53,556 bases of DNA from a virus (IMGVR_UViG_3300004369_000021:1-53556), one strand, 5' to 3'; positions 10,688 to 42,753 are shown, numbered from the stretch's first letter. The notes: a model not told the origin generated them from the letters alone. Program-made: numbers and translations.

Positions 10688-12027
10688 TGGGCAGTATTTT
10701 CCAAGGCACGCCGCAAACGGCGACCTCTTACGCAACTTCTTCGTCCGAGACCCCAAAGTGGATGCAGGACGCCATCTACAATCAGGTGCAGTGGGCGCAA
10801 AACATCGCCAACACACCCTACCAGTCCTACGACATGCCGACTGTCGCGGAACTTTCTCCGCTGCAACAGCAGGCTTACGCTGACGTCGTTGCAAACCAAG
10901 GCTCTTGGAAAGAAGCAATGGGCAAGGCGCAAAGCGGGATGGAAGGTTTCAGTTCAAAAGGAACTGCAGACACTCTGAGGGTTGCGCAAGGCGACTATTT
11001 GCGCAAGGACTTGGTCGGGACAGGCTTAGACACCGGACAACAACTTTTCGGTCGAGCGGCAGGCATGGACACCGTTGGTGCTGGTCAACCTTACCTCACC
11101 CAAGCCGGTTCGACGACCGCGCAGGCACTTTCTGAGCGTGCGTTGGCGGCTGCATCGCCTTACCTGCAAGGTGCAGGCCAGACGTCCGCAAGTCAGGTCG
11201 GCCAATACATGTCGCCTTACCAACAAGGTGTGCTCGACGTCATCGCCAAACAAGGCGCACGCAACCTGACCGAGAACATCCTTCCTGGAGTTTCAGACTC
11301 CTTCATCAAAGCCGGTCAGTTCGGTTCCAGCCGCATGGGTGAGATGGGCGCACGCGCTCTGCGCGACACGCAGGAAGCGATCTTGAATCAACAGGCTCAG
11401 GCGGCGCAACAAGGTTACGGCCAAGCAATGCAGGCGGCTCAAACCGATCTCGCACGCCAAGCGCAGCTGGCCGGAACGGTCGGAAGCATCAGCGGTGCAG
11501 ATCTTTCCCGCATCATGCAAGGCGGTTCTCAATACGGCAACTTGGCGCAAACTGCTGGTCAGCTTACAAGTCAGCAAATGCAAAACCTCGCCAACCTCGG
11601 ACAGCTGCAAACGCAGTCTGGTCAGGCACAACAGCAGTTCGGTCTCACTTCGGCTCAACAAGCGCAGGCGGCAGAGGCGCAGGATTATCAGCGTCAGATG
11701 AACGCATTGCAACAGATGGCTGCTATGGCTCAACAGGAGCAAGGAATGCGTGCGGCAGACGTCGCCGCTTTGGAAACCGCTGGCGCTGCTCAACAGGCTC
11801 AACAGCAACGTCAGCTGAACGCCGCTCAAACGCAATTCCAAACCGAGCAGATGTATCCGAAGCAACAGCTGGACTTCTTGAGCACGCAGGTTCGCGGTTT
11901 GGCTCCGATCACGCCACAAATACGAAATGAATCTTCATCGACCATGGGTGCGACTTACTCGCCATCGCCGCTCTCACAGCTGGCAACAGGCTTGTACACG
12001 TACAAAGGTCTGCAGAACCTAGGTTAA
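10687..12027 (+). CDS. Internal virion protein, Gln/Ala-rich coiled-coil
   Basis: The protein is 446 aa. The N-terminal third begins MGSIFQGTPQTATSYATSSS and contains PKWMQDAIYNQVQWAQNIAN; the later half is an extremely Q- and A-rich helix (about 225-395, for example QQAQAAQQGYGQAMQAAQTD). This composition is common in podovirus core/ejection proteins with long coiled-coils. No catalytic residues are visible. The ATG overlaps the stop of the upstream gene (TAATG) and follows AAAGGAG. It is probably packed inside the capsid beside the proteins at 8768, 12037 and 14409. Exact function is unknown. Confidence 0.6.
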   Translation: MGSIFQGTPQTATSYATSSSETPKWMQDAIYNQVQWAQNIANTPYQSYDMPTVAELSPLQQQAYADVVANQGSWKEAMGKAQSGMEGFSSKGTADTLRVAQGDYLRKDLVGTGLDTGQQLFGRAAGMDTVGAGQPYLTQAGSTTAQALSERALAAASPYLQGAGQTSASQVGQYMSPYQQGVLDVIAKQGARNLTENILPGVSDSFIKAGQFGSSRMGEMGARALRDTQEAILNQQAQAAQQGYGQAMQAAQTDLARQAQLAGTVGSISGADLSRIMQGGSQYGNLAQTAGQLTSQQMQNLANLGQLQTQSGQAQQQFGLTSAQQAQAAEAQDYQRQMNALQQMAAMAQQEQGMRAADVAALETAGAAQQAQQQRQLNAAQTQFQTEQMYPKQQLDFLSTQVRGLAPITPQIRNESSSTMGATYSPSPLSQLATGLYTYKGLQNLG

Positions 12028-12036
12028 GGAGCGGTC

Positions 12037-14409: not shown

Positions 14410-16448
14410 TGATGGGAGACGTGGCAAATTTCACCCGTGCCTTGCTCGGTCAAGGTCTTGGGATGGGTTGGGGCGACGAAGCCGAAGCGTGGCTTCGTTC
14501 GAAAGTCGGCGAAGAGACCTACGAACAGGAACTGGAAAAAATCAATCGTGGATACGGTGAATTCTCTCAACGCAACCCATTCTTAGCACCGCTCACTGAG
14601 TTCGCCGGTGGCGTGCTTCCGATGGCAGCTGCCTACGTTGCGACACCGTTCACTGGCGGTGCTGCAGCACCCGCCGCTGCTGCGACCACGGCAAGAACCG
14701 CTGGCGCATTGACGCGGTTGGCTCAAAACCCAGTGGTGCGCGGTGCGTTGGTCGGCGGAACAACGGGCGCAATCGCTGGCGCTGGCTCAGAGCAACCAGG
14801 AGAGCGTGACCAAGGCGCGGTCGTCGGCGGAACGGTAGGGACGATCTTGGGCGGTGGTGCACCGATCGTGATTCGAGGAACCGGCGCAGGTTACAACTGG
14901 TTGCGCGACCGTCTTGCGCCGAGCGAAGAGGTTATCACCCGTAACGCAACAACCCGCGTCAACCGTGCTCTTGAACAGGCTCAGGGAGGCCAAGGCATGA
15001 CGGCTCAAGAAGCCGCAGACATGGTCGCTGCTGACCGCGCTCGTGGCATCCCTTCGACGGTGGCCAACGCGGATCCTGCTCTGGTCAACTTGGCAGAGGT
15101 CGCCGCCCAACGCACAGGAACCGGCGCAACGCGGATTGACACCGTGTTGGGCGAAAACACCGCTGGCTCACGAGATCGCGTTTACCAGCGCGTGCGTTCA
15201 GAACTTGGTTCAGGCAACTACTACGACGACGAAATGCGCATGGTGGATGAATTGCGCGGTCGTGCCGGTACGATGTACGATGAAGCCTATGCGTTCGGCG
15301 GCGTTTCCGACCCGCGCATCCGCCGCATCCTTGAGTCTCCTCAGTTCCGCAGCTTCTACGATCGTGCACGCGAGATCGCCGACAACGAGCGTTTGGCGGC
15401 AGAACTTCGCGGCGAAGACACCAGCCGGTTTGACCTCAGCGACATTTACGTGGCTGACGCGGATGGCAACGTGGTCGTGCAAAGCATTCCGGACGTGCGC
15501 ACGCTGGATTACATCAAGCGCGGCATCGACGCAACGATCGAACGCGGCTTCGATGGCAAAGGTCTCAGCACCGCTGAAGCAAGTGCTCTGCGTGACCTCC
15601 GTCGCCAGTTTGTGAACGTGATTGACGAAGCAACTGTCGATCCGCAAACAGGCGTTTCCGCCTACGCGCAAGCAAGACGAAGCTATGCTGGAGACATGGA
15701 GGTTCTCGACGCACTGCGCACCGGTCGAAACGATTTCAACCGCCTTGACCACGAGGAGATCGCTCTGATGGTCAAGGAAATGAGTGACGCTGAAAAAGAC
15801 GCATTCCGCACGGGTGCGATCCGCAACGTCTACGACAAACTGATGACTCCTTCTGGAAACATCAACGCCGCTCAACGCATCATTGGTTCGCCTGAATATG
15901 CCGCCAAGCTGCGACCGCTTTTCGATTCACCGGCTCAGTTCGATCTTTTCCAGTCTGCGATGCAACGCGAGATGCAGCTGTTCCAGCAATCCAACCGCAT
16001 CCTTAGTGGTTCAGCAACCGCTCGCCGCACGCAGGGTCGCGATGCATTCGAACAAGGTTCGCCGGTCGGCGACGTTGTGGCCGACACGATCACCGGTTCT
16101 TTCGGCAACTCACTGACCAACCTTGTTGCGCGCATCGTACGCAGCGCGACGATGACCGACGACATGGCGGATGAAGTTTCTCGCCTGTTGATGTCGAGCG
16201 ATCCAACCGATGTTGCCGCCGCCGTCAAGTTGTTGGAAGATTATGGCCAAAGAGCAGCGGTCGGTGCGGCTCAACTGAACAGAGCAGAAACCGGCGTGAT
16301 TATGGGAACGGCAGTTGCTCTGCCTCCGCCTCCGCCGACGGAAGAAGCGCCGGACGTGACCCAAGACGTTCTCGGCTTGAACGCGGCGCGCACTCAAGAA
16401 GGTGGCCCAAGCATTCAAGACGACCTAGAAGCCATGCGGGGTCAGTGA
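14409..16448 (+). CDS. Internal virion / ejection protein sharing an N-terminal module with the M15 fusion
   Basis: The protein is 679 aa, starting at the ATG directly after GAAGGAG. Residues 8-95 (RALLGQGLGMGWGDEAEAWL, then FAGGVLPMAAAYVATPFTGG and APAAAATTAR) are closely related to residues 309-396 of the 952-aa protein at 36650. Glycine- and alanine-rich membrane-compatible segments follow to about residue 170. The rest is helical, with charged stretches and a proline-rich tail (LPPPPPTEEAPD) near the C-terminus. No catalytic residues are seen. It is the last gene before the terminator at 16487. It is likely ejected with DNA and inserted in the host envelope; this is inference from the glycine-zipper module and position. 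Confidence 0.6.
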   Translation: MMGDVANFTRALLGQGLGMGWGDEAEAWLRSKVGEETYEQELEKINRGYGEFSQRNPFLAPLTEFAGGVLPMAAAYVATPFTGGAAAPAAAATTARTAGALTRLAQNPVVRGALVGGTTGAIAGAGSEQPGERDQGAVVGGTVGTILGGGAPIVIRGTGAGYNWLRDRLAPSEEVITRNATTRVNRALEQAQGGQGMTAQEAADMVAADRARGIPSTVANADPALVNLAEVAAQRTGTGATRIDTVLGENTAGSRDRVYQRVRSELGSGNYYDDEMRMVDELRGRAGTMYDEAYAFGGVSDPRIRRILESPQFRSFYDRAREIADNERLAAELRGEDTSRFDLSDIYVADADGNVVVQSIPDVRTLDYIKRGIDATIERGFDGKGLSTAEASALRDLRRQFVNVIDEATVDPQTGVSAYAQARRSYAGDMEVLDALRTGRNDFNRLDHEEIALMVKEMSDAEKDAFRTGAIRNVYDKLMTPSGNINAAQRIIGSPEYAAKLRPLFDSPAQFDLFQSAMQREMQLFQQSNRILSGSATARRTQGRDAFEQGSPVGDVVADTITGSFGNSLTNLVARIVRSATMTDDMADEVSRLLMSSDPTDVAAAVKLLEDYGQRAAVGAAQLNRAETGVIMGTAVALPPPPPTEEAPDVTQDVLGLNAARTQEGGPSIQDDLEAMRGQ

Positions 16449-19956: not shown

Positions 19957-20351
19957 GATTCTTTGTCCCGTACTGGTTTGGTTGTGTGCCAAAGTGCAAC
20001 CGCCATCAACTGATCGACGGTCATGTCGTTGATGGTTTCTGTGTGCTCACCGCCGATCAACATCCAACGTTTGTCGGTCACGATCAGGAAGTAAGCATTG
20101 CCCTCAGCCTTCATTTGCCGCATGAACCAGTTCTTCTGGTCTTGCGACACCTTGTGGTTGGAGCCGAACAGCTTGGTTGTTGCGCGCACAGGCTCCTTGG
20201 GTGACTTCTGCTCGATCCAGCACTCAACGCCTTCCGTGCAGTAGTTGATGTCCGGCATGCCGTTCACCACGACATTCTCAACGCGGTCGAGCCGGTCACG
20301 ACCTTGAGGAAGGTTTGCTTTCAACACCTTGTAGTCGTTGCTTTCAGCCAT
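19899..20351 (-). CDS. PD-(D/E)XK nuclease (VRR-NUC-like)
   Basis: The start at 20351 (MAESNDYKVLKANLP, 150 aa) overlaps the polymerase stop and has GGAGG upstream. The catalytic pattern is clear: E25-containing RVENVV, G31-M-P33-D34, and W45-I-E47-Q-K49, which together give PD...ExK. Following strands (YFLIVTDKRWMLI) complete the small nuclease core. Related phage enzymes act on branched DNA or as endonucleases. Lying between a DnaE-type polymerase and a SNF2 helicase, it probably handles replication or recombination intermediates. The exact substrate cannot be told from sequence. Confidence 0.8.
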   Translation of the reverse strand: MAESNDYKVLKANLPQGRDRLDRVENVVVNGMPDINYCTEGVECWIEQKSPKEPVRATTKLFGSNHKVSQDQKNWFMRQMKAEGNAYFLIVTDKRWMLIGGEHTETINDMTVDQLMAVALWHTTKPVRDKESWTKLRQTLSSKPSPTGTN

Positions 20352-23100
20352 CGAGCCTCCGCCACTTGGTGATGAACGCATAGCGAATGTCGTTGAAAAA
20401 CTTGGCGCGAATCATCAAGTGCGCACCCGTCGGCACCCGCTCCAACAACTCCCTGCCGAACCGCTCGAAGTCATACCGCCCGATCCGACCGCCAATGGTG
20501 CCAGAGTCATCGCGCAACCGCACATCCACGAACTCCAGTGGACCGGTGCCGACCTTGCCTCCGCGCTTCTTGACGTTGACCTCTTCGTTGTAGTTGCGAG
20601 CGTTCTTGTAGATCAACTCGCCGAGGAACACCCGCTCTTCGTTGTGGCGGATGTTTTCAAGATCCTTGATCTCGACAACGTCGCTGGCGATGCCGTGCGT
20701 TGCCGGATCCTCGTACAAGTGCAGGTAATGGCGGCGGAACGGGAAGATGTCGGCGAAGATGTTCTCAGCCTTTTCGATTTCTTCGCGCTGCTTGTCGGTT
20801 AGCGTGCCGGAGTTGCGTGCTTCGATCAGCTTGGCGGCTTTGCTTTCGCCGATGCCTTTCAACGCCGTGAACCCGCCGTAGAGCACGCCGTCCTTGGCCG
20901 ACCAATTCATTTCTGACTTGTGCAGGTCGAACGAAACGTATTCAATGCCTTCGCGCACCATCTCGCGCAGCAACTCGACCGCGCTGTCTTCGTCCTTGGC
21001 GTTGCGCAGGTTGGCAGCAGCAAACTCCAGCGGGTGGTGCGCCTTGAGGTACGCCGTCCAGTAGCTGATAACAGCGTAGCTGAACGTGTGCGCCTTGTTC
21101 ATCTGCCAAGCACCCATCGCGTTGATGGTTTCCCACGTGGCGCGTGCTTCGGGTTCGCCGATGCCTTGGCTCGCCGCTCCTTCCTTGAACTTGGTCCAGT
21201 AGGTGTCGAAGAATTCCTTGCCCATGCGCTTAGACATCGCTTTGCGGATGGTGGAGGTTTCCTTCCAGTCGAACTTGCCGATCTCGCGCACGATGGCGAG
21301 CGTCTGCTCTTGGTAGACAGGCAGACCGTAGGTCTCCTTCATGTGCTCTTCCACTAGCGGGTGGATCGGCGTATACGCTTCACCCTTCTTGCGACGAACG
21401 TACTTTTCAGTCACGCCACCGCCGAATGGTCCAGGACGCGCCAGAGCCGTCACCGCGTCGATCTCGACGATGGTCTTGAAGTCGATGTCGCGGCTGATCG
21501 CTCGCAGGGCGTTGCCTTCGAATTGGAAGATCCCGCAAAGCCGACCGGCGTTGAACACGTCGTAGGTTTTCAAGTCATCGAACGGCAAATTGTACCAGTC
21601 AATTCCCAAGCCGCTGTCTTCGAGCACGCCCAGCGTCCGCAGACCGAGCACGTCAATCTTGAGCAACCCCAACTGTTCAGCCGCGCCTTTTTCCATGTGG
21701 GCGATGCCGTTTGCATCCACGGTTGCGTAGTTGGTGATCTCTTCGTTACAAACCAACAGCCCTGCTGCGTGCACACCGCTGTGCGAGGCGTGACCTTCCA
21801 AGAGCATTGCGGCTTTGGCTTGCGGGTATTGCTTGATGAACTCCTGACCAGGAGTGGTTTCGTTGAACGTGTCTTCCAAGCAGTTGTTGGCGCGTGAGTC
21901 GGCGGACGAACGCTCGATCATTGCAACCTTCACCGAACCCGTAGCTTGCGGAGGGATGTTCAACGCTTTGCACACCTGAATGAGTGCTGACTTGGGGCGG
22001 AACTGACCGATGGTGCCGATGTGGGCGACGTTGCTTGAGCCGTACTTCTCGGCCATGTATTCGAAGACCATGTGACGCTTGGAGTCAGGGAAGTCCAAGT
22101 CGATGTCGGGCAGGTCGGTGCGGCTGACGTCGATGAAGCGTTCGAAATACAGCTTGGGCGGGATCGGGTCGATCTCGGTGATGCGCGTCAGGTAACAAAC
22201 CAGCGAACCCGCCGCCGAGCCGCGTGATGGGCCAACGAGCATGTGTTGCTTGGCGTAGTGCACCATGTCGGCCACGATCAAGAAGTAAGACTCAAAGTCC
22301 TTGGAGCGGATCAAATCCAACTCGTACACCATCCGGTCTTCGTACTCCTGCGTCCACCGGTCTTCCATCTTGCGGAACTTGATTCCTTCACGACACCACT
22401 CTTCAAGGTTGCCCTCTGTGCGCACCATGGGTGCTTGCGGCAACTTCAACTCCGCGCATTCAGCGGCAATATCGGCGGCTGCATCTTGGTTTTCAAGCGT
22501 TTCCAAGATCCACTGCGGCGTAACCTTCAACCCTGCTCTGGAAGCCAACTCGAAAACAGCGTCGTCCTCTTTGTAAGCATAGGCATTGTCGCCTGTGCTC
22601 ACGACGCGCAAACCGTGTTGTTCAGCGATGCGCTGCTTGCGCATGTTCAGGATGCGGCTAGACGGGTTCAGGTCGATGACCGCGCCAACTTCCTTCAGGA
22701 ACTCACCGTCAACTATTTCACCAGCGAACTTCAGGATGTCGTCCGACATGTTTAAAACGTCGTTGCGGTACAGGCGCGGCAATGCGCCGGTTTTGGTAGG
22801 AATGGTCTGCTGGTGGCTCTTGCTGGTCGCCCTATACAACTCCCCAAGACCTTGCTGGTTCTTGGCTAGGAACCACATCCTGTGAGGCGTTTCGTCGTCC
22901 GAGACAACGCACTCGACGCCGAGCAGCGGTTGGATGCCTGCGTCCTTGCAACTCTTGTACCAAGCCACGTGTCCCCACGTTGAATTGTCAACGATCGCCG
23001 CCGCCGTGCAACCAATGTCTTGGAGACGCTGGATGACACGCTTGATCGGCGCAAATGTCTGGCCGAACGAGTATTCAGTCTTTACCCTTAGATGAATCAT
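20344..23100 (-). CDS. dnaE: DNA polymerase III alpha-like (family C, DnaE-type)
   Basis: The protein is 918 aa, shorter than bacterial DnaE (about 1160). Order: PHP domain (1-220), palm and fingers (about 260-740) and a C-terminal helix-hairpin-helix plus OB-like region (TALKGIGESKAAKLIEAR; LRDDSGTIGGRIGRYDFERF). Palm motifs are intact: SRGSAAGSLV (292-301), PDIDLDF (331-337) and KIDVLGL (481-487), giving the three catalytic Asp; LARPGP (553-558) and VYQEQ are also present. The PHP entry motif is HLRVKTEYSF where active PHP domains have HSD, so metal-dependent proofreading there is probably lost. A separate DnaQ-type exonuclease starts the overlapping upstream gene. It replicates the phage genome. 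The start has no strong SD, consistent with coupling. Confidence 0.95.
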   Translation of the reverse strand: MIHLRVKTEYSFGQTFAPIKRVIQRLQDIGCTAAAIVDNSTWGHVAWYKSCKDAGIQPLLGVECVVSDDETPHRMWFLAKNQQGLGELYRATSKSHQQTIPTKTGALPRLYRNDVLNMSDDILKFAGEIVDGEFLKEVGAVIDLNPSSRILNMRKQRIAEQHGLRVVSTGDNAYAYKEDDAVFELASRAGLKVTPQWILETLENQDAAADIAAECAELKLPQAPMVRTEGNLEEWCREGIKFRKMEDRWTQEYEDRMVYELDLIRSKDFESYFLIVADMVHYAKQHMLVGPSRGSAAGSLVCYLTRITEIDPIPPKLYFERFIDVSRTDLPDIDLDFPDSKRHMVFEYMAEKYGSSNVAHIGTIGQFRPKSALIQVCKALNIPPQATGSVKVAMIERSSADSRANNCLEDTFNETTPGQEFIKQYPQAKAAMLLEGHASHSGVHAAGLLVCNEEITNYATVDANGIAHMEKGAAEQLGLLKIDVLGLRTLGVLEDSGLGIDWYNLPFDDLKTYDVFNAGRLCGIFQFEGNALRAISRDIDFKTIVEIDAVTALARPGPFGGGVTEKYVRRKKGEAYTPIHPLVEEHMKETYGLPVYQEQTLAIVREIGKFDWKETSTIRKAMSKRMGKEFFDTYWTKFKEGAASQGIGEPEARATWETINAMGAWQMNKAHTFSYAVISYWTAYLKAHHPLEFAAANLRNAKDEDSAVELLREMVREGIEYVSFDLHKSEMNWSAKDGVLYGGFTALKGIGESKAAKLIEARNSGTLTDKQREEIEKAENIFADIFPFRRHYLHLYEDPATHGIASDVVEIKDLENIRHNEERVFLGELIYKNARNYNEEVNVKKRGGKVGTGPLEFVDVRLRDDSGTIGGRIGRYDFERFGRELLERVPTGAHLMIRAKFFNDIRYAFITKWRRLDG

Positions 23101-23653
23101 CAGTCGTTTCCTCCCCGATCAGCAATTCCAAGAATCCGTCCTTTTGAATGCATTCGTGCAATGCCTTCACATCGTCCAGAGCACGGTGCGTTTGCGCCAA
23201 GGGGAAACCCATGATCCGCTCGTACAACTCCAACAGCTTGGGACGCTTGCCGAACTGAGAGTGATATTCCTGAACCGTGCAGACAACCTGCTCTGGCCAC
23301 GGAAAGTCCGTGCACTCAGCACGCTCCAAGTCTAGTTCAAGCATCTTCTTATCGAACGGTGCATTGTGCGCGACCAACACTTGCGTGTCGGTGAAGAATT
23401 CCTTCAGCTGCGGCAGGAAGTCTGTGAAGGTCGGCTTGTTTTCCAACATTTCATTGGTGATGCCGGTGATCTTGGTGATCTCCTCGCTGATCTCGATCTC
23501 CGGATTGATCATCTGGTTCAACTCGCGCAGGACGCCAGTCTTGTCGACCACCACCGCTCCAAGTTCAATGATGCGCGGTTGCTTTTCCAACGGCGCGGTT
23601 TTGGGCAGAGGCAATCCGGTTGTCTCAGTGTCGAATATCGCGACCTTGTTCAT
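23075..23653 (-). CDS. dnaQ: DnaQ-type 3'-5' exonuclease (epsilon-like proofreader)
   Basis: I start at 23653 (MNKVAIFDTETTGLPLP, 192 aa), preceded by AGAGGAA; nine codons further upstream are open but unlikely. DEDDh motifs: Exo I D8-T-E10, Exo II HNAPFD with D101, Exo III H156-RALD-D161. The fold matches bacterial Pol III epsilon and oligoribonuclease relatives. It overlaps the polymerase start by 26 bases (23075-23100), so the two should be made in similar amounts, and it probably supplies the proofreading that the degenerate PHP domain lacks. Whether it binds the polymerase directly is not known. Confidence 0.92.
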   Translation of the reverse strand: MNKVAIFDTETTGLPLPKTAPLEKQPRIIELGAVVVDKTGVLRELNQMINPEIEISEEITKITGITNEMLENKPTFTDFLPQLKEFFTDTQVLVAHNAPFDKKMLELDLERAECTDFPWPEQVVCTVQEYHSQFGKRPKLLELYERIMGFPLAQTHRALDDVKALHECIQKDGFLELLIGEETTDDSSKGKD

Positions 23654-23676
23654 TTCAATTCCTCTTGTTTTCAGGT

Positions 23677-24144
23677 TCACTGATCGATTCGCACGATGAA
23701 CTTCAGGTCAACGCCAAGAACGAACTTGGTGTCGAATATCACGTAGTTGTACTTGCGCTTACCGGCGATGACGGGGTTGGTGTGCGAGTCGGTGAAAACC
23801 TCCTGCGCGACAGGGAACCCGCGTGCGTGGAAGAACTTGCGCCACTCGACCAACTCTTCAGCAGAGCAGTGCATGCCGAGATGGCTAACGGTGTTGCGAC
23901 CGCGCATCAGCGAGTCAACCCAGTTATCGCCGTTCGTGTAGTCCAGGATCTCAAACTCTTTGCCGCCGAACAGTTCATAGTTGAAGCTTAGATCGGCTTC
24001 GTTAGTTCCCTCCTTTCCGAAGACTTTGCCTGTGGCGACGACGTGGTCGTTGTGCCATTCGACCGCACCCATCTCGGCGAGCAACATTTTAGCGCGGACA
24101 GGGTCGGCGGGTGCGATGGCGATTTGTTCAATTACGAATTTCAT
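23677..24144 (-). CDS. VOC (glyoxalase)-superfamily-like protein
   Basis: The protein is 155 aa. It begins MKFVIEQIAIAPADPVRAKMLLAEMG and has the second half HLGMHCSAEELVEWRKFFHARGF and NPVIAGKRKYNYVIFDTKFVLG. A beta-alpha-beta-beta-beta arrangement with H at strand starts and E in late strands is typical of the vicinal oxygen chelate fold, seen in glyoxalases and dioxygenases. The metal site is not fully clear: H89 or H92 and a C-terminal acidic residue are candidates. A catalytic role is therefore uncertain. It lies between an SDR enzyme and the exonuclease in the same operon. Confidence 0.55.
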   Translation of the reverse strand: MKFVIEQIAIAPADPVRAKMLLAEMGAVEWHNDHVVATGKVFGKEGTNEADLSFNYELFGGKEFEILDYTNGDNWVDSLMRGRNTVSHLGMHCSAEELVEWRKFFHARGFPVAQEVFTDSHTNPVIAGKRKYNYVIFDTKFVLGVDLKFIVRIDQ

Positions 24145-24147
24145 GAT

Positions 24148-24816
24148 TTATGCTCCATAGGGAAGAATGCAACCAGTGAGGTGCTTGTGGTGGTCCTTGT
24201 CTTGCAACAAGAAGGCGATGAACTCAGCAACGCGCTCTGGGGGAGTTTCCTCACCGCAAAGCAAACCGTTCAGTTGGTATTGCTGGGCGTACTCTTTGGT
24301 CCAGCCGCGAGTTTTGACGACCTGATCGTCAATGGCGTCGCTCATGCCGGTGCCTTTGAGTTTGTTGGGCGCGACACCGAACACGGTGATGCCGTGCTTC
24401 TTGGTCAACTCACGCGCCAATTGCAGCGTCATGATGTGCGCCGCGCCTTTGGATGCGTTGTAAGCCAGCGAACAAGTCATCGGCATGTGCGCCGCGTTGC
24501 TCACGATGTTTAGGACTGTGCCCTTGCTTTTGATCAGCAGTGGCAGGTACGCTTGGGTCATCTTGAAGATGCCCTTGGCGTTTACGTCCATCACTTCGTC
24601 CCACTTCTCTTCGGTGAAGTTTTCCAGCCAATCAATCAGGTTGACGCCTGCGCAGTTGATCAGCACATCCAGCTTGTCGCATGCGATTTCCGGCTTCAAG
24701 ATGTCTTGGCCGAAGTTGCGGTCGTAGCCGATCACTTCGTGGTTGGCGGCTTCGAGAGCCTTGTAGATGGCTTTGCCGAGACCCTTGGCCGCGCCGGTGA
24801 CGAGGATTGTGCTCAT
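24148..24816 (-). CDS. Short-chain dehydrogenase/reductase (SDR)
   Basis: The protein is 222 aa with the full classical SDR signature: cofactor loop TGAAKGLG (7-14), NCAGVN (54-59), and catalytic S106, Y119 and K123 in YNASK. It would use NAD(H) or NADP(H) on a carbonyl or alcohol substrate; substrate cannot be deduced. SDR genes appear as auxiliary metabolic genes in aquatic phages. It is in the - strand operon beside the VOC-like protein, and the gene stops two bases before that gene's start. Overlap with the upstream gene is four bases (ATGA). The C-terminus (TGCILPYGA) is short, as expected for a minimal SDR. Confidence 0.92.
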   Translation of the reverse strand: MSTILVTGAAKGLGKAIYKALEAANHEVIGYDRNFGQDILKPEIACDKLDVLINCAGVNLIDWLENFTEEKWDEVMDVNAKGIFKMTQAYLPLLIKSKGTVLNIVSNAAHMPMTCSLAYNASKGAAHIMTLQLARELTKKHGITVFGVAPNKLKGTGMSDAIDDQVVKTRGWTKEYAQQYQLNGLLCGEETPPERVAEFIAFLLQDKDHHKHLTGCILPYGA

Positions 24817-34442: not shown

Positions 34443-34928
34443 ATGGCGACCAAGTACACGGACGCAGACAAGCGCAATATTGCAAACAAGGTCTTCAAAC
34501 TGATGGAGACTGGCATGCCGCTTGGAAAGTCGTGCAAAAAAACTGGTGTCCCGAAAGCAACCGTTCAGGGTTGGATCGCCGCTGACGCGGCCATTGCCGG
34601 CCAGTACGCGCTCGCGCGCGAGGCCCTGCTGGAACATTGGGCTGAGGAAGTGGTCACCGTTGCCGACGATGACCCCGCGCAAGTGGTCGATCAAAACGGC
34701 ATTGCTCGTTATGACTCTGCGGCGGTGCAACATCAACGCTTGCGTGTCGACTCCCGCAAGTGGGTGCTAAGCAAACTGAAGCCGAAAGAGTACGGCGACA
34801 AAGTCACGCAGGAACACACCGGTGCAAACGGCGGTCCAATCGCCATGGCGGCTGTCGACTTGAAGAACCTCAGCGACGAAGAGTTGGCTGCGATGAAAAC
34901 TTTGATGGCGAAGGTAACAAGTTCGTGA
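34443..34928 (+). CDS. terS: Terminase small subunit
   Basis: The ATG at 34443 (MATKYTDADKRNIANKVFKL, 161 aa) has GGAG upstream; a GTG at 34392 lies inside the promoter spacer and is rejected. Residues 20-50 (METGMPLGKSCKKTGVPKAT then VQGWIAADA) form the helix-turn-helix typical of small terminases, which bind the packaging site on phage DNA. Residues 100-125 (DSRKWVLSKLKPKEYGDKVT) are a common motif following the HTH in this family. The protein would form a ring and load the large subunit. It overlaps TerL by four bases (GTGA). Confidence 0.85.
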   Translation: MATKYTDADKRNIANKVFKLMETGMPLGKSCKKTGVPKATVQGWIAADAAIAGQYALAREALLEHWAEEVVTVADDDPAQVVDQNGIARYDSAAVQHQRLRVDSRKWVLSKLKPKEYGDKVTQEHTGANGGPIAMAAVDLKNLSDEELAAMKTLMAKVTSS

Positions 34929-36496
34929 ACGCTTCCATCGAACCCGCATTGATGCTGAAAATGATCGAGGTGGAAGAAAGTCGCCGCGCCGCTTCAGCGT
35001 CTTTGTACGAGTTCGTGCGCCAGTGTTGGCCGACAGTCGAACCAGGAGTGAAGTTCGTCGAGTCATGGCACATTGAAACGATCTGCGAACACCTTGAAGC
35101 AATCACAGCCGGTGAGATCCGCAAGCTGCTGATCAACATTCCGCCGCGCCATTCGAAGTCTACGATCGTTTCGGTCATTTGGCCGATGTGGGAGTGGTTG
35201 ACAGACCCTGCCCAAAAGTACCTGTGCGCATCCTACTCCGGCAACCTGAGCATCCGTGATAACTTGAAGGCAAGACGCTTGGCGCAGTCCCCTTGGTACC
35301 AAGAGCGTTGGGGTCACATGTTCAAGTTGTCCGGTGACCAGAACGCCAAGCAACGCTTCGAGAACGACAAGACCGGCTACCGGCTAGCGACATCCGTGGG
35401 CGGTACAGCGACTGGTGAAGGCGGATCGAGGTTGATCCTCGACGACCCGCATTCCGCGCAAGAGGCGCAATCGGACGTCATCCGGCAGTCGGCGTTGGAG
35501 TGGTTCGACGTTGTTTGGTCCACCCGTCTGAACGACCCCAAAAAAGACGCCATGGTTACGGTCATGCAGCGTCTGCACGAACGCGACATCTCAGGACACA
35601 TCCTTGAGGACATTGGCGGCTGGGAACACTTGATGATCCCTGCTGAGTGGGACGGCGTGAAGCGCAAGACGTTCCTTGGTCCTTATGACCCGCGCAAAAA
35701 GAAAGGCGACCTGATATGCCCTGAACGCTTCGGCGTCAAAGAGATCACCGAACTCAAGCAGCTGCTCGGCACATACGGCACCGCAGGCCAGCTGCAGCAA
35801 GACCCGACGCCGTCTGAAGGCGGCATCCTGAAGACCGCACACATTCAGATGTGGCCGCATGAAAAAGCGTTGCCGCACTTCGAATACATCCTGCAGTCCT
35901 ACGACTGCGCGTTCACCGAAAAGACAACCGGCGACCCGACTGCTTGCACGGTGTGGGCGATGTTCACGCACGAAGGTCAACGCAAGGCGATGCTCATCGA
36001 CGCATGGGACGAGCATCTGTCGTACCCTGAACTTCGCACTCGCGCGATCAAGGACTGGGGAACTGAGTATGGCGGCACGTCCATCAAGGACGGCGTGCGC
36101 CGCGCTCGTAGACCAGACCGCGTGCTCGTTGAAGCCAAGGCGTCAGGCCAATCCTTGCTGCAGGACTTGCGGCTCGCCAAGGTTCCGGCTGTTCCCTACA
36201 ATCCTGGAATGGCCGACAAGATCAGCCGTGCGCACCAAGCCGCGCCGACGCTCGAACTGGAGTTGATCTGGGTTCCTGAGTCGGCCAAGAACCCTGGACA
36301 GCCGGTCAGTTGGGCTGCAGCGTTCTTGAAACAGCTTGCTAAATTCCCTGTTGCAGAGCATGATGACTATGTTGACACGTTCACGCAGGCGATAATTTAC
36401 CTCAAAAACAGCCAATGGTTCGAGTTGCCGCAGGCTCGCGACATCGACGAACCGCGCAGGCTCAACGAACGGAAGGTGAACCCATATGCAATCTAA
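34925..36496 (+). CDS. terL: Terminase large subunit
   Basis: I use the GTG at 34925 (VNASIEPALMLKMIEVEESR, 523 aa), preceded by AAGG and coupled to TerS; an ATG at 34952 is an alternative. Walker A is PPRHSKS (73-79) and Walker B is LILDDPH (170-176), with SVGGTATGEGGSR before it. The nuclease domain begins with YDCAFTEKTTGDPTACTVWA and ends with HDDYVDTFTQAIIYL, containing the acidic residues that cut concatemers. The motor translocates DNA through the portal. The long open frame upstream to 34760 is only an alternative reading of TerS. Gene order TerS-TerL-portal is typical. Confidence 0.93.
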   Translation: MNASIEPALMLKMIEVEESRRAASASLYEFVRQCWPTVEPGVKFVESWHIETICEHLEAITAGEIRKLLINIPPRHSKSTIVSVIWPMWEWLTDPAQKYLCASYSGNLSIRDNLKARRLAQSPWYQERWGHMFKLSGDQNAKQRFENDKTGYRLATSVGGTATGEGGSRLILDDPHSAQEAQSDVIRQSALEWFDVVWSTRLNDPKKDAMVTVMQRLHERDISGHILEDIGGWEHLMIPAEWDGVKRKTFLGPYDPRKKKGDLICPERFGVKEITELKQLLGTYGTAGQLQQDPTPSEGGILKTAHIQMWPHEKALPHFEYILQSYDCAFTEKTTGDPTACTVWAMFTHEGQRKAMLIDAWDEHLSYPELRTRAIKDWGTEYGGTSIKDGVRRARRPDRVLVEAKASGQSLLQDLRLAKVPAVPYNPGMADKISRAHQAAPTLELELIWVPESAKNPGQPVSWAAAFLKQLAKFPVAEHDDYVDTFTQAIIYLKNSQWFELPQARDIDEPRRLNERKVNPYAI

Positions 36497-36653
36497 GAAA
36501 CCTGTTTGGGACAAAAAGCGACCAAAGGATCTTGGTGAGCCTAAGCCGCTCGGCAAGAAAGCTAAGAAGAGCGCAATGGCCGTTGCCAAGGAAGCCGGTC
36601 GTCCGTACCCGAACCTCGTCGACAACATGCGTGCTGCGAGGAAAAAGAAATGA
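36486..36653 (+). CDS. Very small basic protein between TerL and the M15 fusion
   Basis: The protein is 55 aa (MQSKKPVWDKKRPKDLGEPK, ending RAARKKK). It begins inside the TerL end (ATG at 36486) and its stop overlaps the ATG of the next gene (ATGA at 36650-36653). It has 16 Lys and 5 Arg and the late motif KEAGRPYPNLVDNMRA. Similar short basic proteins follow terminase genes in aquatic phages. It probably binds DNA or an acidic partner in packaging. It is easy to miss because of its size. Confidence 0.75.
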   Translation: MQSKKPVWDKKRPKDLGEPKPLGKKAKKSAMAVAKEAGRPYPNLVDNMRAARKKK

Positions 36654-39508
36654 ACCAGCGCGTTGACAAAGACACCCTCCCGCTCGACAAGCCACGTCGC
36701 ACACCGAGCCACCCAACCAAGTCGCACATCGTGAAGACGCGGGTGGACGGCAAAGAGAAGATCATCCGGTTCGGCGAACAAGGAGCCGAGACCGCAGGCA
36801 AGCCCAAGGCAGGCGAGTCTGAACGCATGAAAAACAAACGCGCATCGTTCAAGTCTCGCCACTCCAAGAACATCGCCAAAGGCAAGAGCAGTCCCGCATA
36901 CTGGGCCAACAAAGTCAAGTGGGCTGACGGCGGCTCTGTGAACCTCGAAGAAATGTATCAGAAGTACGAACGAGGCGGCAAGGCTCGCGGCTCGTTGCTC
37001 GAAGGGTTCATGGCTGAGTTGGAGCGTTTGCGTTCGTTGCAGCGCAAGCAGGATTCGCTGGAGTTCCGCCCCGAATACACTGAACGCGGGCAACCCTTGG
37101 CACTTAGATACGACCGCGCTCCGACGCGCTCCGATCCGACGCGCTCCGACGCCGATCCGCAGACCGCTGGGGTGCCGACCGAACGTTCGCCGACAGGGAT
37201 GAACCCGAACTTTGCTTCTGCGTTGGAGAACTTGATTGCTGCGGCATCGGAAGCCGGTCACGATGTGACGATCAACTCAGGTTACCGGTCGCCAGAGCGT
37301 CAAGCAGAACTGTTCGCCGACGCTGTTCGAAAGTACGGCAGTGAAGCAGCGGCACGCCGCTGGGTTGCTCCTCCAGGAAAATCAAGACACAACCATGGCA
37401 TCGCGGCTGACTTGGGTTATGGCAGCGATGAGGCTCGCGATTGGGTTCATGCGAACGCTGAAAAGTATGGCTTGAACTTCCGCATGGATTGGGAGCCATG
37501 GCACATCGAACCGCTCAACATGCAACGAGGCGGCGCAGTGAAGGGTTACGAAACTGGCGGATTTAAGGACATTGCACGCTCTGTCCTCGGTCAAGGTCTT
37601 GGGTTGGGTTGGGGTGACGAGGGCGAAGCTTGGTTGCGGTCTAAACTTGGCGATGAGCGTTATGAAGACGCGCTCGCTGAAATTCAAGCATCGAACCGCG
37701 CCTATGCCGAAAACAACCCGATCGGGTCAATCGTTGGTGAGGTTGCTGGAGGGTTGATCCCGACAACAGCGGCATATCTTGCAACGCCGTTCACGGGTGG
37801 CGCAGCAGCACCCGCCGCCGCCGCGACCACGGCTCGCATGGGCATGTTGGCTCCACGGGTTGCAGCGCAGTTGCCGAACTGGATGAGAGGCGCAGCGGTC
37901 GGCGCAGGCGAAGGCGCGATTGTAGGAGCAGGGATGGCTGACCAAGGAGAGTCTCGCGCAGAAGGCGCAGCCATGGGAGCCGCGATCGGCGCACCGCTCG
38001 GCGCAGCAGCACCAGTTGCGATTGACGCCGTTCAAGGCGCGTTGGACCGCAGAGCGATCCGCACAGCAGCTTCGCAGGTGCCGGACGATTCGGCTTACGA
38101 ACCTCTGCGCCAGCGGTTGTTCGACCAAGGTGTGATGAACTACGCTGTCTTGCCGCAAGGCAATGTCAACTTGCAACCCGCGATCAGCGCCGAAACGCTG
38201 AGGGGTCCAGACGTCCAGACAGTTGAATCATTCTTGGCGCAAATCAAAGGCACTCCTGGCGTCAGCCAAGACGCGCTCGAAGAACTTTCAAGGCGTTACG
38301 AAGACCTGCCTCCTAATTCGACTATCAGCAAGGCTGACTTTGAGGCGAGAATCCCGCCTTCGCAGTACAACACGGTTGACCTGAAGAACTTGGCTGGAAA
38401 CAGCGAGTACGACATGGACCTTTACAGGGAACAAGCAATCGACTGGTTGTATGAACATCCGGACGAGCCTTATCAAAATGTTTTGTACAGCATTGGGCTC
38501 GATCCGAACGAGGACAATTTGCACTTGATCGCCGGTCTGAACGAGGGGGCGATCGACCTTGAGGACGTGCCTGAGGAGTTCCTCAATGCCTTCCGAAGAG
38601 CCAGTTGGGAAGATGACATTTTCGGCAACCTCAGCAAAACAACCGACAGCGCAAGGAACGAACTTGTCGAAGCCATGGCTCAAGACTTCGCAGAGCAAAC
38701 CGGAACTTCCGACGCAGGCTACCGCTACTTAGACTCTCAACGCTTGTTGACCGAAAACACCCAAGATGCGCTGGACGACAACTACTTCGAGATTGGCGTG
38801 ACGCACCCCGACATGGCTGGTAAGAACTACTGGCACTACCCAAATGCCTTGAATCCCGACGACGGCATGATCGGTCACATTCGCGGGACTTACATACCGG
38901 CGGACAAAACCAACGCCACCGTTCGTGCGCCTTTGGCCGACAACGTCCACTTTCCTGACGCGTCGATCCCTGTTCGACCGAACAGCGTTGTGATTGAGGA
39001 GATCCAGTCCGACGCTCAAAAGGATGCAGCCCAGTCCGGCGCACTGCGCCAAACCCACGGGACGCTTTTCAAGGCTGCAATCAACGACGCTCTGAAGCGC
39101 GGAGCAGACACGGTCTACCTCCCCTCGGCGGCGACGATCGCCTTGCCGCGTGGAGGCAATCGCGGAAGGTTCGCGCCGATTTACGATCAACAGATCGTGA
39201 AAGAGGGTCTGAGGCCGTTGTCGCAAATTCCTGGTGTCGAGATCAAGCCGGTCGGAGTCAACGGGGCGTTGGCTTACCACGAGATCACTTTCTCGCCCGA
39301 GGCGGTGGAAACAATCTTGCGCGGTCGCGGTCAGCGCACTCCAGGTTACGCAAAAGGCGGCGCGGTGATGGCCTACGACCCTACAATCGTGGAGGCGCGC
39401 ATCGCTTCTATCGGCAAAGGTTACGCAAAAGGCGGCGCGGTCAGAGCCTACGACCCTGCAACCATCGATCAACTAGTCAAAACCGTCCGAGAGGGTGCAC
39501 ATGTCTGA
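36650..39508 (+). CDS. Multi-domain virion protein: M15 peptidase, ejection module, EEIQSD domain
   Basis: The protein is 952 aa. Residues 20-92 (HIVKTRVDGKEKIIRFGEQG, ending SPAYWANKVKW) form a small basic domain found as a separate protein near terminase genes of other phages. Residues about 180-290 are an M15 D,D-/L,D-carboxypeptidase-like domain: SRHNHG with H247, D254 and the E282-PW-H285 Zn/catalytic set. Residues 292-305 hold RGGAVKGYETGG. Residues 309-460 are a glycine/alanine-rich ejection module related to the N-terminus of the protein at 14409. The C-terminal part has EEIQSD (about 781-787) with ALKRGADTVYLP, a signature of large phage polyvalent proteins. Two YAKGGAV tags close it. 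Probably a virion-borne cell-wall-cutting ejection protein. Confidence 0.75.
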   Translation: MNQRVDKDTLPLDKPRRTPSHPTKSHIVKTRVDGKEKIIRFGEQGAETAGKPKAGESERMKNKRASFKSRHSKNIAKGKSSPAYWANKVKWADGGSVNLEEMYQKYERGGKARGSLLEGFMAELERLRSLQRKQDSLEFRPEYTERGQPLALRYDRAPTRSDPTRSDADPQTAGVPTERSPTGMNPNFASALENLIAAASEAGHDVTINSGYRSPERQAELFADAVRKYGSEAAARRWVAPPGKSRHNHGIAADLGYGSDEARDWVHANAEKYGLNFRMDWEPWHIEPLNMQRGGAVKGYETGGFKDIARSVLGQGLGLGWGDEGEAWLRSKLGDERYEDALAEIQASNRAYAENNPIGSIVGEVAGGLIPTTAAYLATPFTGGAAAPAAAATTARMGMLAPRVAAQLPNWMRGAAVGAGEGAIVGAGMADQGESRAEGAAMGAAIGAPLGAAAPVAIDAVQGALDRRAIRTAASQVPDDSAYEPLRQRLFDQGVMNYAVLPQGNVNLQPAISAETLRGPDVQTVESFLAQIKGTPGVSQDALEELSRRYEDLPPNSTISKADFEARIPPSQYNTVDLKNLAGNSEYDMDLYREQAIDWLYEHPDEPYQNVLYSIGLDPNEDNLHLIAGLNEGAIDLEDVPEEFLNAFRRASWEDDIFGNLSKTTDSARNELVEAMAQDFAEQTGTSDAGYRYLDSQRLLTENTQDALDDNYFEIGVTHPDMAGKNYWHYPNALNPDDGMIGHIRGTYIPADKTNATVRAPLADNVHFPDASIPVRPNSVVIEEIQSDAQKDAAQSGALRQTHGTLFKAAINDALKRGADTVYLPSAATIALPRGGNRGRFAPIYDQQIVKEGLRPLSQIPGVEIKPVGVNGALAYHEITFSPEAVETILRGRGQRTPGYAKGGAVMAYDPTIVEARIASIGKGYAKGGAVRAYDPATIDQLVKTVREGAHV
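39345..39441 (+). repeat. Duplicated C-terminal tag coding sequence
   Basis: The 23-base unit GGTTACGCAAAAGGCGGCGC plus GGT occurs at 39345-39367 and 39419-39441 and encodes GYAKGGAV twice, each followed by a similar AYDP element, in the last 60 residues of the 952-aa protein. Confidence 0.8.
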
Positions 39509-41999
39509 TATAAACGAACGCGACGATGAGTCCCTCGAAAAAGGCGAAACTGTCTCTTACGAGGATTCATTCTCAGAAGTTGAAGACACCGATGACGGTG
39601 GCGCAGTCCTGCGCATGGAAAACGAAGAAGACGAGAAGCGCAACCTCGCGCATTTCGCCAACATTGTCGAAGAGGTTGACCAAGCCGCGCTGAAGGAAGC
39701 GGTCACCGACCTGCTCGACAAGATCGAAAAAGACAAAGAGGCTCGCGAAAAACGCGACAAGCAGTACGAAGAAGGTTTGCGCCGCACCGGTCTCGGCGAC
39801 GACGCTCCTGGAGGCGCGCAGTTCACCGGCGCGAACAAGGTCGTTCACCCGATGTTGGTCGAGGCGTGTGTGGACTTCTCGGCGCGGTTCATGAAAGAAG
39901 TTTTCCCGCCCAATGGTCCAGTCAAGTCGAAGGTCTACGGCGAGCAGGACAAGAAGAAGGTCGAGAAGGCGGAACGCAAGACCGAGTTCATGAACTGGCA
40001 AACGACCAAGCAGATGCCGGAGTTCCGCAGTGAACTTGAACAGCTGAGCACGCAGTTGCCGCTCGGCGGTGGGCAGTACATGAAGTTCATGTGGAACCCG
40101 CAGCGTCGCCGACCCATGAGTGAGTTTGTTGCGATCGACGACATTTACTTGCCGTTCGCCGCCACGAACTTCTACACCGCCGAGCGCAAGACGCACGTTC
40201 AGTACATCACCAAGATGGAATACCAGCGTCGCGTCAAGAGCGAAATGTATGTCGACGTTGACCTCGGCGCTCCTGGAGAGGTTGAGTTCAGCAAGGCGTC
40301 CATCGCCAACGACAAGATCGAAGGTCGCAAGGAGTCCAGCTACAACGAAGACGGTCTGCGCACCATCTTCGAAATTTACACGCATCTCGACTTTGGCGAT
40401 GGTCTTGAGCCTTACATCATCAGCATCGACAAGACCACCGAGTTGCCGTTGGCGCTTTACCGCAACTGGGAACCCGACGACGAACTGCGCAACGAATTGG
40501 ATTGGATCGTTGAATTCCCGTTCGTTCCTTGGCGCGGAGCGTACCCAATCGGTCTCACCCACATGATCGGCGGTCTGAGCGGCGCGGCCACAGGCGCGTT
40601 GCGTGCATTGTTGGACAGCGCACACATCCAGAACGTTCCGACATTGCTGAAGTTGAAGGGTGGTCCAGGCGGACAGACCATCAACCTGCAGCCGACTGAA
40701 GTTGTCGAGATGGATGGCGGCGCAATGGTGGACGACGTACGCAAGCTGGCGATGCCGTTGCCGTTCAATGGTCCAAGTCCTGTGTTGTTCCAGTTGCTTG
40801 GCTTCCTCGTGGACGCAGGCAAAGGCGTTGTGCAAACGTCGTTCGAAAAACTCAGCGATCAGAACCCCAATGCTCCTGTCGGAACGACGATGGCGTTGAT
40901 CGAGCAGGGGATGGTGGTTTTCTCCAGCATTCATTCGCGGCTTCACAACGCGATGGAAAAGTGTTTCGGCATTTTACACCGCCTGAACAGCGCGTACCTT
41001 ACTGAAGAAGACGTCGAGGCGCACAAGTCGGGTTTAGAGATTGACCCGAGCGACTTTGATGGTCCGATGGACGTCATGCCGGTGAGCGACCCCGCGATCT
41101 TCAGCGAGACGCAACGTTTCGCGCAAACGCAAGCGATCATGCAACGCGCTCAAGCAATGCCGCAGATGTATGACCCGCGCAAAGTCGAGCAGATGTTCTT
41201 GCGCACCCTCAAGGTTCCATACGAAGACGTTCTGAAGCCAGAAGCGGCAAGCGAGGACATGGATCCGGTCAGCGAGAACGTGGCTGCGTCGATGGGCAGA
41301 CCGCTTTACGTGCTGCCGCGCCAAGACCACATTGCGCACATCATGACACACATGGCGTTCTTGAAGTCGCCGTTGCTGGGTTCCAACCCGCCGATCATGA
41401 AGACTTGCATCTACGCTCTCGCGCAACACCTCAAGGATCACGTTTTGAATTACTACCTCGTGGAGGCTCACAACGCCGTGGACAAAGCGCAACGCGAAGA
41501 GTTGATCGAGGCGGAAGCCGAAGAGCAGGTTCAGTTGATCATTCAGGTTCAGCAGCTGATCGAAAAGCAGCTTGGGTCGTTCGGTCAGGAACTTGCCCAA
41601 CTCACGGACTTCGCCGAGCAGTTCAAGCCGCAATCCCCTATGCCGCCCGACAACACCATGCAAGTTGCTCAACTCAACGCGCAGGTTCAAGGTCAGGCTC
41701 TACAAGAGCGTGCGCAGTACAATCAGGCACGCGTCCAGCTGGATCAACAAAAGCTGCAAACGCAACAGCAACTGGAAGCCGCCAAGTTGGCTCAACGCCA
41801 GCAAGACGCTCAAGAGAAGTTGCAGGCAGAGCAGATGAGACAAATGGCCGAAAACGAACGCACCGCTGCAGACATCGCTGCACGCGAGCGCATGAACACG
41901 GCAGACAACGACACCGCGAAGCTGCTCGCCGCAGCAGAATTGGCAACCGGCGAACGAGTCTCGGTGAGCACCGGCAGTGGCATCAACCCCAACCCTTGA
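39501..41999 (+). CDS. Portal protein
   Basis: Using the ATG at 39501 (MSDINERDDESLEKGETVSY, 832 aa) with GAGAGGG upstream. The acidic N-terminus is followed by helical and beta parts typical of large podovirus portal proteins: GANKVVHPMLVEACVDFSAR, MKEVFPPNGPVKSKV, FVPWRGAYPIGLTHMIGGLS in the clip/stem region and VDAGKGVVQTSFEKLSDQNP. The C-terminal 200 residues are Q/E-rich coiled-coil, like a barrel extension. It makes the dodecameric gate for DNA entry. It is placed after TerL and the M15 fusion, in the packaging operon. Confidence 0.88.
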   Translation: MSDINERDDESLEKGETVSYEDSFSEVEDTDDGGAVLRMENEEDEKRNLAHFANIVEEVDQAALKEAVTDLLDKIEKDKEAREKRDKQYEEGLRRTGLGDDAPGGAQFTGANKVVHPMLVEACVDFSARFMKEVFPPNGPVKSKVYGEQDKKKVEKAERKTEFMNWQTTKQMPEFRSELEQLSTQLPLGGGQYMKFMWNPQRRRPMSEFVAIDDIYLPFAATNFYTAERKTHVQYITKMEYQRRVKSEMYVDVDLGAPGEVEFSKASIANDKIEGRKESSYNEDGLRTIFEIYTHLDFGDGLEPYIISIDKTTELPLALYRNWEPDDELRNELDWIVEFPFVPWRGAYPIGLTHMIGGLSGAATGALRALLDSAHIQNVPTLLKLKGGPGGQTINLQPTEVVEMDGGAMVDDVRKLAMPLPFNGPSPVLFQLLGFLVDAGKGVVQTSFEKLSDQNPNAPVGTTMALIEQGMVVFSSIHSRLHNAMEKCFGILHRLNSAYLTEEDVEAHKSGLEIDPSDFDGPMDVMPVSDPAIFSETQRFAQTQAIMQRAQAMPQMYDPRKVEQMFLRTLKVPYEDVLKPEAASEDMDPVSENVAASMGRPLYVLPRQDHIAHIMTHMAFLKSPLLGSNPPIMKTCIYALAQHLKDHVLNYYLVEAHNAVDKAQREELIEAEAEEQVQLIIQVQQLIEKQLGSFGQELAQLTDFAEQFKPQSPMPPDNTMQVAQLNAQVQGQALQERAQYNQARVQLDQQKLQTQQQLEAAKLAQRQQDAQEKLQAEQMRQMAENERTAADIAARERMNTADNDTAKLLAAAELATGERVSVSTGSGINPNP

Positions 42000-42156: not shown

Positions 42157-42350
42157 ATTTTGAAACCACCTTGTTGAACCGCCTCAAGGAAGAGCAGCAC
42201 AAATTTGCTGTTGACGCCTTGAAGCGGCCACAAGAACGCGACGCTTTTGAGTACGGCTTGCGCGTTGGGGTGTTCGCCGGTTATGAGGCGGCGATCAATG
42301 TACTCTTGAAACTTCTTGATGAGGAGAAAAATGGTGACAACGACATCTGA
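42153..42350 (+). CDS. Small helical protein in the head operon
   Basis: The protein is 65 aa (MNFETTLLNRLKEEQHKFAV). It is nearly all helix, ending LLKLLDEEKNGDNDI. The gene overlaps the next start region by 20 bases, and the SD of the GroES-like gene lies inside it. Comparable short helical proteins are found beside head genes in related phages. Function unknown. Confidence 0.6.
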   Translation: MNFETTLLNRLKEEQHKFAVDALKRPQERDAFEYGLRVGVFAGYEAAINVLLKLLDEEKNGDNDI

Positions 42351-42753
42351 GAACGCTTTGGCAGAGGCGTTTCCGGCGGCAGACGCTGGAGTGCAGCCTT
42401 TCGGAAGCCGCGTTCTGGTTCAAATTCGAACGCCGAAGAGCAAAACTTCCGGCGGCATCATCTTGCACAGCGAGTCGCGTGACACTGAAAAGTGGAACAC
42501 ACAAGTTGCCAAGGTGGTCAGCGTTGGACCGCTCGCGTTCAAAAACCGCAACACCATGGAACAGTGGCCTGAAGGCTCTTGGTGCAAAGTCGGCGAATTC
42601 GTTCGCGTGCCGAAGTACGGCGGCGACCGATGGGAAGTCCCGCTCAGCAACAAGATGGGCGACAATGAGTCCGCAATGTTCGTAATTTTCAATGACCTTG
42701 ACATCATCGGGCAGGTAACTGGTGACCCGCTGGCGATCAAGGCGTTCATCTGA
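42331..42753 (+). CDS. GroES/Cpn10-like co-chaperonin
   Basis: The protein is 140 aa from the ATG at 42331 with GAGGAG upstream. The Cpn10 core is recognisable: PFGSRVLVQIRTPKSKTSGG, the mobile-loop region IILHSESRD, the strand AKVVSVGPLA, GEFVRVPKYGG and FNDLDIIGQV. Phage co-chaperonins such as T4 gp31 help host GroEL fold large capsid proteins, and this gene lies between portal and scaffold, in the head module. It has an extra segment (KNRNTMEQWPEGSWCKV) compared with bacterial GroES. A mobile loop with IIL is consistent with GroEL binding. No GroEL gene is visible. Confidence 0.8.
   Translation: MVTTTSENALAEAFPAADAGVQPFGSRVLVQIRTPKSKTSGGIILHSESRDTEKWNTQVAKVVSVGPLAFKNRNTMEQWPEGSWCKVGEFVRVPKYGGDRWEVPLSNKMGDNESAMFVIFNDLDIIGQVTGDPLAIKAFI

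Follow-up and report, generated by a model that had tools for sequence, protein, structure and literature searches.

The analysed virus record (53,556 bases, hereafter the window) carries an unusual gene between those of the terminase large subunit (TerL) and the portal protein: a single open reading frame that joins a peptidase to several unrelated domains. What does such a protein do, and why is it encoded among the head genes? An earlier note had described it as a 952-aa fusion of four parts, i.e. a 'terminase-neighbour' domain, an M15 peptidase, an ejection module and an EEIQSD domain, and had proposed that the virion carries it to open the cell wall, cross the envelope and deliver its C-terminal domain into the cell. 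Our comparative analysis suggests, with a probability of roughly 0.62, that it is a polyvalent internal virion (ejection-type) protein composed of a delivery module, an exchangeable wall cutter and an exchangeable payload.

Gene position and protein layout

The features of the gene and of the related genes in the window are as follows:

3857–4330, + strand: GH24-type endolysin (lysis), a separate gene preceded by a holin-like ORF (3421–3891)
10687–12027, + strand: 'DNA ejection protein' (phrog_4287, PHROG annotation), in the cluster of 14409–16448
14409–16448, + strand: ejection-cluster protein (phrog_5880), N-terminus equivalent to the glycine-rich module (52% identity)
34760–36496, + strand: TerL, upstream neighbour (phrog_38, 1e-86)
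36650–39508, + strand: 952-aa modular protein (ORF with SD-like GAGGA upstream)
36650–36940, + strand: N-domain, residues 1–97, small and basic, phrog_7595 (profile match over residues 7–91, 1e-32)
36941–37198, + strand: linker, residues 98–183 (part up to 37069 with 91–93% DNA identity to relatives L001 and L002)
37070–37528, + strand: exchange cassette, without DNA match to L001 and L002 (SLT cassette there, about 485 bp)
37199–37513, + strand: VanY/M15 metallopeptidase domain, residues 184–288 (Pfam and PDB matches; H247, D254, E282, H285)
37550–38044, + strand: GWGDEGEAW/glycine-rich ejection-type module, residues 301–465 (by homology; 97% DNA identity to L002)
38066–38098, + strand: conserved junction AASQVPDDSAY, residues 473–483, beyond which the payload varies among phages
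38138–38749, + strand: first part of the C-terminal payload, residues 497–700 (includes the 'FL..L...PGV...(S/T)K.EF' unit)
38750–39364, + strand: EEIQSD domain proper, residues 701–905 (predicted GNAT-like fold)
39495–41999, + strand: portal protein, downstream neighbour (phrog_1216, 1e-11)

All four parts described by the earlier note are present in an intact frame: the ORF encodes 952 aa without an internal stop, a GAGGA Shine–Dalgarno-like stretch sits 8 bases upstream of its ATG, and both EEIQSD and ALKRGADTVYLP are found in the translated protein. The 3' end of the ORF overlaps the start of the portal gene, with an ATG at 39501 overlapping the fusion-gene stop. Nearly all relatives encode the C-domain at one of two sites, between TerL and portal or immediately 3' of the portal. 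The cultured Caulobacter phages RW and KcrB, which are relatives by their portal (51%), do not contain the fusion gene, which makes the gene dispensable in the wider lineage. By tblastn, neither the C-domain nor the module had a match in cultured phage records, and a search of a genome collection gave a sole match, to one gammaproteobacterial MAG contig.

The strict position between TerL and portal, the overlap with the portal start and the frequent co-transcription of head genes with assembly factors would suit a head-assembly or packaging accessory, with a structural or regulatory EEIQSD domain in place of a host-directed effector. However, cultured relatives do without the gene, its payloads give way to unrelated domains and occur together with ART-PolyVal domains (see below), and head assembly offers no evident role for a wall cutter. 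We consider this explanation unlikely and favour an ejection-type protein.

The name 'terminase-neighbour' holds for part of the distribution of the N-domain. In the window lineage, N-domain copies follow TerL, as a separate gene directly after TerL (L048) or between TerL and the C-domain gene (L057–L059), but three cultured phages with the N-domain that were examined do not have the TerL neighbourhood. In the fetched loci, the N-domain precedes the glycine-rich module, either fused to it or as a separate small gene. Neither the N-domain nor the module matches PDB sequences. Two close relatives contain about 730–940 bp of extra coding sequence between N-domain and linker (L001:318–1049 and L002:3515–4456), which is missing from the window (site given as 36942–36929).

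Several other genes of the window are recorded here. A GroES-like co-chaperonin gene (42316–42753, by eye) lies between portal and capsid, and GroES is annotated at the corresponding site of several phages whose portals are related. The window also encodes a DNA polymerase III alpha-type polymerase with a PHP domain (20344–23100), adjoined by a separate RNase T-type exonuclease gene (23075–23680), and a FabG-like short-chain dehydrogenase (24151–24816, phrog_3142), which is an auxiliary metabolic gene. Two related proteins, both phrog_4474 (135–1232 and 1676–2923), are probably duplicates in the tail-fibre region, and a small ORF just upstream of the ejection cluster (8329–8766) resembles GNAT acetyltransferases weakly (best PDB E=0.007).

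The M15 domain and a probable wall-cutter slot

Residues 184–286 match the VanY/M15 Pfam model PF02557 with 69.3 bits (cut-off 25; E=3.6e-19), and the Zn set named in the earlier note (H247, D254, E282 and H285) is located exactly as claimed. The PDB sequence matches of the domain are YodJ, LdcB and D,D-dipeptidase/carboxypeptidases, and their alignments cover H247 and D254 of the Zn/catalytic residues. The domain thus resembles the VanY, LdcB and YodJ peptidases in sequence and in Zn/catalytic residues, but differs from them in being part of a virion-type fusion. Within the M15 fold, the VanY/LdcB type comprises carboxypeptidases acting on peptidoglycan stem peptides, and other members are endopeptidases.

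We then compared the window with its relatives L001 and L002 at the DNA level. Identity is 88% in TerL, 90% in the N-domain, 91–93% in the linker up to position 37069, about 97% in the module, 65–82% in the C-domain and 90–98% at the portal start, whereas positions 37070–37528 of the window have no DNA match in these two relatives and the breakpoints are sharp. At the site of the M15 domain, the nearest relatives (L001, L002, L004 and L010) instead encode a lytic transglycosylase recognised by the Pfam SLT model (about 5e-23). The folds of M15 and SLT are unrelated, but both enzymes have peptidoglycan as substrate. Because unrelated enzymes with the same substrate are exchanged in an otherwise conserved protein, the job of this slot appears to be wall cutting, and the M15/SLT exchange is strong comparative evidence for its peptidoglycan role. 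An SLT domain is also present in L066 and L154, in proteins with EEIQSD or EIQSDW domains. No hydrolase was recognised in the slot of L054 and L005–L007, and the slot is therefore optional.

In our searches, which may have missed near-identical records, an M15 domain in the slot is found in the window contig only; other copies of the architecture carry SLT or nothing, and a search for a second such contig gave standalone M15 loci only. In one case (L020), a standalone M15 relative is flanked by a head-closure gene and a phrog_5880 protein, and the M15 homologues L015 and L017 were not seen beside head genes. Restriction to one contig might point to an assembly artefact (a chimera) or to an accidental fusion in decay. 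This is hardly credible, given that the reading frame is intact, that both flanks resemble the same relatives, with identities of 91% and 97% and not 100%, and that the modules are under purifying selection (see below).

A second alternative is that the M15 domain is a self-processing protease of the long protein and not a peptidoglycan cutter. According to the part of Iyer et al. 2017 (PMC5512222) considered here, auto-processing metallopeptidases are a theme of polyvalent proteins and have been proposed for P1 DdrB and the N4 virion RNA polymerase. However, the slot of the near relatives holds a lytic transglycosylase, an enzyme that does not cut peptides. The stem-peptide activity of the VanY/LdcB type, as known for the family, also speaks against self-processing, which we regard as quite improbable. 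A third alternative is a phage lysis enzyme or late-release factor, as M15/VanY domains are common in endolysins and several PHROG matches are named endolysin. But the separate GH24 endolysin, encoded beside a holin-like ORF, makes such a role very improbable, and the M15 domain is embedded in mid-protein, between the N-domain and the ejection-type module. In brief, the auto-protease, the lysis enzyme and the assembly chimera were rejected because of the SLT in the slot, the GH24 endolysin, and the intact frame with non-identical flanks, respectively, and a wall cutter within an ejection-type protein remains our preferred reading of the M15 domain.

Other arrangements of similar domains were observed in three further contigs. 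In L208 (MW202675.1), a GNAT + M15_3 + ART-PolyVal protein (9136–11355) is encoded directly after the portal and next to an EIQSD protein (11352–13895), i.e. the same functions are present as unfused neighbour genes. The TerL–portal EEIQSD protein of L057 (5527–8196) contains near its N-terminus a stretch, HTHP...S..D, that by eye resembles the JAMM/MPN metalloprotease motif and has no Pfam match. The EEIQSD protein of L077 (4141–9282; 1714 aa) has an ART-PolyVal match and, by eye, a further M15/LAS-like peptidase stretch (GYR...HGQGKAVDF...HLD) that Pfam did not recognise.

The ejection-type module and a probable payload slot

Residues 303–463 match phrog_5880 and the N-terminus of the window ORF 14409–16448 (52% identity, E=3e-40). 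The phrog_5880 match is limited to profile positions 62–211 of 661, and similarity to the full-length family, including its C-terminal ~500 aa, is absent from the window protein, which shares the module and is not a family member. A profile search of the fetched loci found the module in 84 ejection-type ORFs (with the ejection-protein C-terminal part) and in 30 other ORFs, nearly all of them TerL–portal proteins; these counts include overlapping copies of one contig and are not independent. This near restriction to ejection-type proteins and the window protein is our main reason to think that the latter would be loaded into the virion and leave it again. The 'ejection module' of the earlier note is therefore upheld by homology to the ejection-cluster protein but not by a formal glycine pattern, as the Gly-zipper Pfam match, at 18.5 bits, falls short of its cut-off of 28.9 bits. 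The glycine-rich stretch is just borderline hydrophobic (best 19-residue Kyte–Doolittle mean 1.6), so that membrane passage is something we infer.

Known internal virion or ejection proteins include T7 gp16 and P22 gp16/gp20, and T7 gp16 joins ejection-type sequence with wall cutting, as the window protein does. In contrast to podophage ejection proteins, the window protein is encoded apart, between TerL and portal. It has the N-terminal module of the phrog_5880 ejection protein of its own genome in common with that protein, but carries it in mid-protein and adds a C-terminal payload that is absent there.

Among phages, the module before the AASQVPDDSAY junction is constant and the sequence beyond it differs. 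The payload behind the module is (i) a divergent EEIQSD region in the window (~430 aa), L001 and L054; (ii) a canonical EIQSDW region in L013, L014 and L043; or (iii) a third C-terminal region in the TerL–portal proteins of L215, L248, L260 and L265, where it follows the N-domain/module. For the third-type payload of L215, a homologue (E=3e-15) was found in DSL-LC04, in a protein that Pfam assigns a PcfJ match; Pfam did not detect the PcfJ domain itself in L215, L248 and L260, and these payloads are 'PcfJ-like' by relationship. ART-PolyVal domains are found in homologues with the same C-domain, i.e. in L009 (just above the Pfam cut-off) and in L011 and L077 (below it), and the window protein itself contains none.

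Between the window and L001, dS is 0.09 in the module and 0.74–1.29 in the C-domain, whereas the order is reversed between the window and L054 (2.04 in the module and 0.58–0.69 in the C-domain). The dN/dS ratios per module are 0.13–0.38 in all parts, and the modules are under purifying selection. The different synonymous divergence of the modules, together with low dN/dS, indicates that they recombined separately and were kept functional. The earlier picture of a fixed four-part fusion thus gives way to a mosaic, in which the wall-cutter and payload slots are exchanged and the N-domain often has a gene of its own.

The part of Iyer et al. 2017 (PMC5512222) considered here describes predicted packaged and injected polyvalent proteins of portal–terminase phages, which pair a lysozyme, SpoIID-like or DD-peptidase domain with effector domains, and in whose class ART and GNAT domains occur. 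The window protein is likewise a long, multidomain protein of a portal–terminase phage with a peptidoglycan enzyme and an effector-type region, but that part mentions neither a module common to an ejection-cluster protein nor the exchange of enzyme and payload as cassettes. It contains at least two functionally unrelated domains (phrog_7595, M15, the ejection-type module and the EEIQSD region), it is encoded between TerL and portal among the late genes, and ART-PolyVal, a member of the polyvalent inventory, is present in its homologues L009, L011 and L077. The protein therefore has the features of the polyvalent class that are open to computation, and its packaging in the virion and delivery are predicted. 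It also resembles polymorphic toxins and MuF-fused effectors, as known generally and from the same paper, in having a constant delivery part and an exchangeable C-terminal payload; in contrast to these, it adds an exchangeable wall-cutting cassette in mid-protein.

The EEIQSD domain and a possible delivery mechanism

Profile comparison, with collinear similarity, joins the EEIQSD region to the much wider EIQSDW family (hhalign probability 96.5–97%), with the PGV..TK unit as the confident core and the EIQSD half alone at 76%. The 'FL..L...PGV...(S/T)K.EF' unit of the window payload is common to canonical EIQSDW proteins, and a pattern scan found the EIQSDW family in at least 120 viral contigs. 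No Pfam model was found for the EIQSD family, Pfam (its polyvalent-protein models included) gave no match to the EEIQSD region, and the C-domain and canonical EIQSD profiles gave nothing useful against PDB sequences.

The earlier note regarded the function of EEIQSD domains as open; this need no longer be wholly so, as AlphaFold models give mainly GNAT-fold matches, albeit individually weak ones. For the window domain (pLDDT 79), the first 13 PDB matches in Foldseek are all of the GNAT fold, with Naa50, the NcdE acyltransferase, AstA, HAT1, EsaI and TmcA among the matches (best E 0.015). The second modelled protein, a compact canonical member (pLDDT 90), again has mostly GNAT-fold matches (NatD, EsaI, FeeM, Naa50, KKT23 and TofI); others are interspersed, and the E values start at 0.07. 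TM-scores of the GNAT-fold matches are <0.5. By eye, the segment 'RQVHGTLFKAAIQHALEKGADTVYLP...YASIYDQQ' aligns with the GNAT A/B motif region. The modelled domain resembles GNATs (e.g. Naa50, NatD, EsaI, NcdE and FeeM) in predicted strand/helix order and in its leading Foldseek matches. However, the scores are weak, no GNAT profile match was obtained by HMMER/Pfam among 26 C-domain members, and the acyl-CoA loop R/QxxGxG/A of GNATs is not evident. On balance, the models tip slightly towards a GNAT-like fold, and catalytic activity of the domain seems doubtful. Ten of the 26 members also match DUF6282 (best 5e-4), which was judged a short helix–strand coincidence.

We propose the following mechanism. 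The N-domain and the glycine-rich GWGDE module would place the protein in the particle, where it may be packaged together with the ejection proteins, and would carry it out with the DNA through portal and tail. During entry, the M15 or SLT cassette may open or trim the wall locally, as the exchange of the two enzymes suggests. The C-terminal payload, which in the window is a divergent EEIQSD domain with probably a GNAT-like acyltransferase fold, could then enter the cytoplasm and modify a host target. We infer virion presence, ejection, cutting of the wall during entry, delivery to the cytoplasm and EEIQSD enzymatic activity. The reading of the earlier note, a virion-carried protein that would open the wall, cross the envelope and deliver its C-terminus, finds good comparative support in the module, the M15/SLT and payload exchanges, and the separate endolysin. 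A more far-reaching and tentative idea is that the protein is a virion-borne analogue of polymorphic toxins, with an ejection-derived delivery module and two independently exchanged slots (one for a wall-breaching enzyme, one for a cytoplasmic payload), and that EEIQSD/EIQSDW might be an unrecognised family of injected GNAT-fold acyltransferases.

New here are the DNA-level exchange of the wall-enzyme cassette, the ejection module in common with a protein of the same genome, the exchange of payloads and the GNAT-like hypothesis for the EEIQSD domain. With these, the general prediction of injected polyvalent proteins becomes a testable design. The small module present in both the ejection-cluster protein and the fusion should act as a portable signal for virion loading and ejection, and the natural replacement of M15 by SLT in close relatives offers a ready comparison for wall breaching at entry. 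For the EIQSD family, which is found in at least 120 viral contigs, the GNAT-like fold is the first hypothesis on structure.
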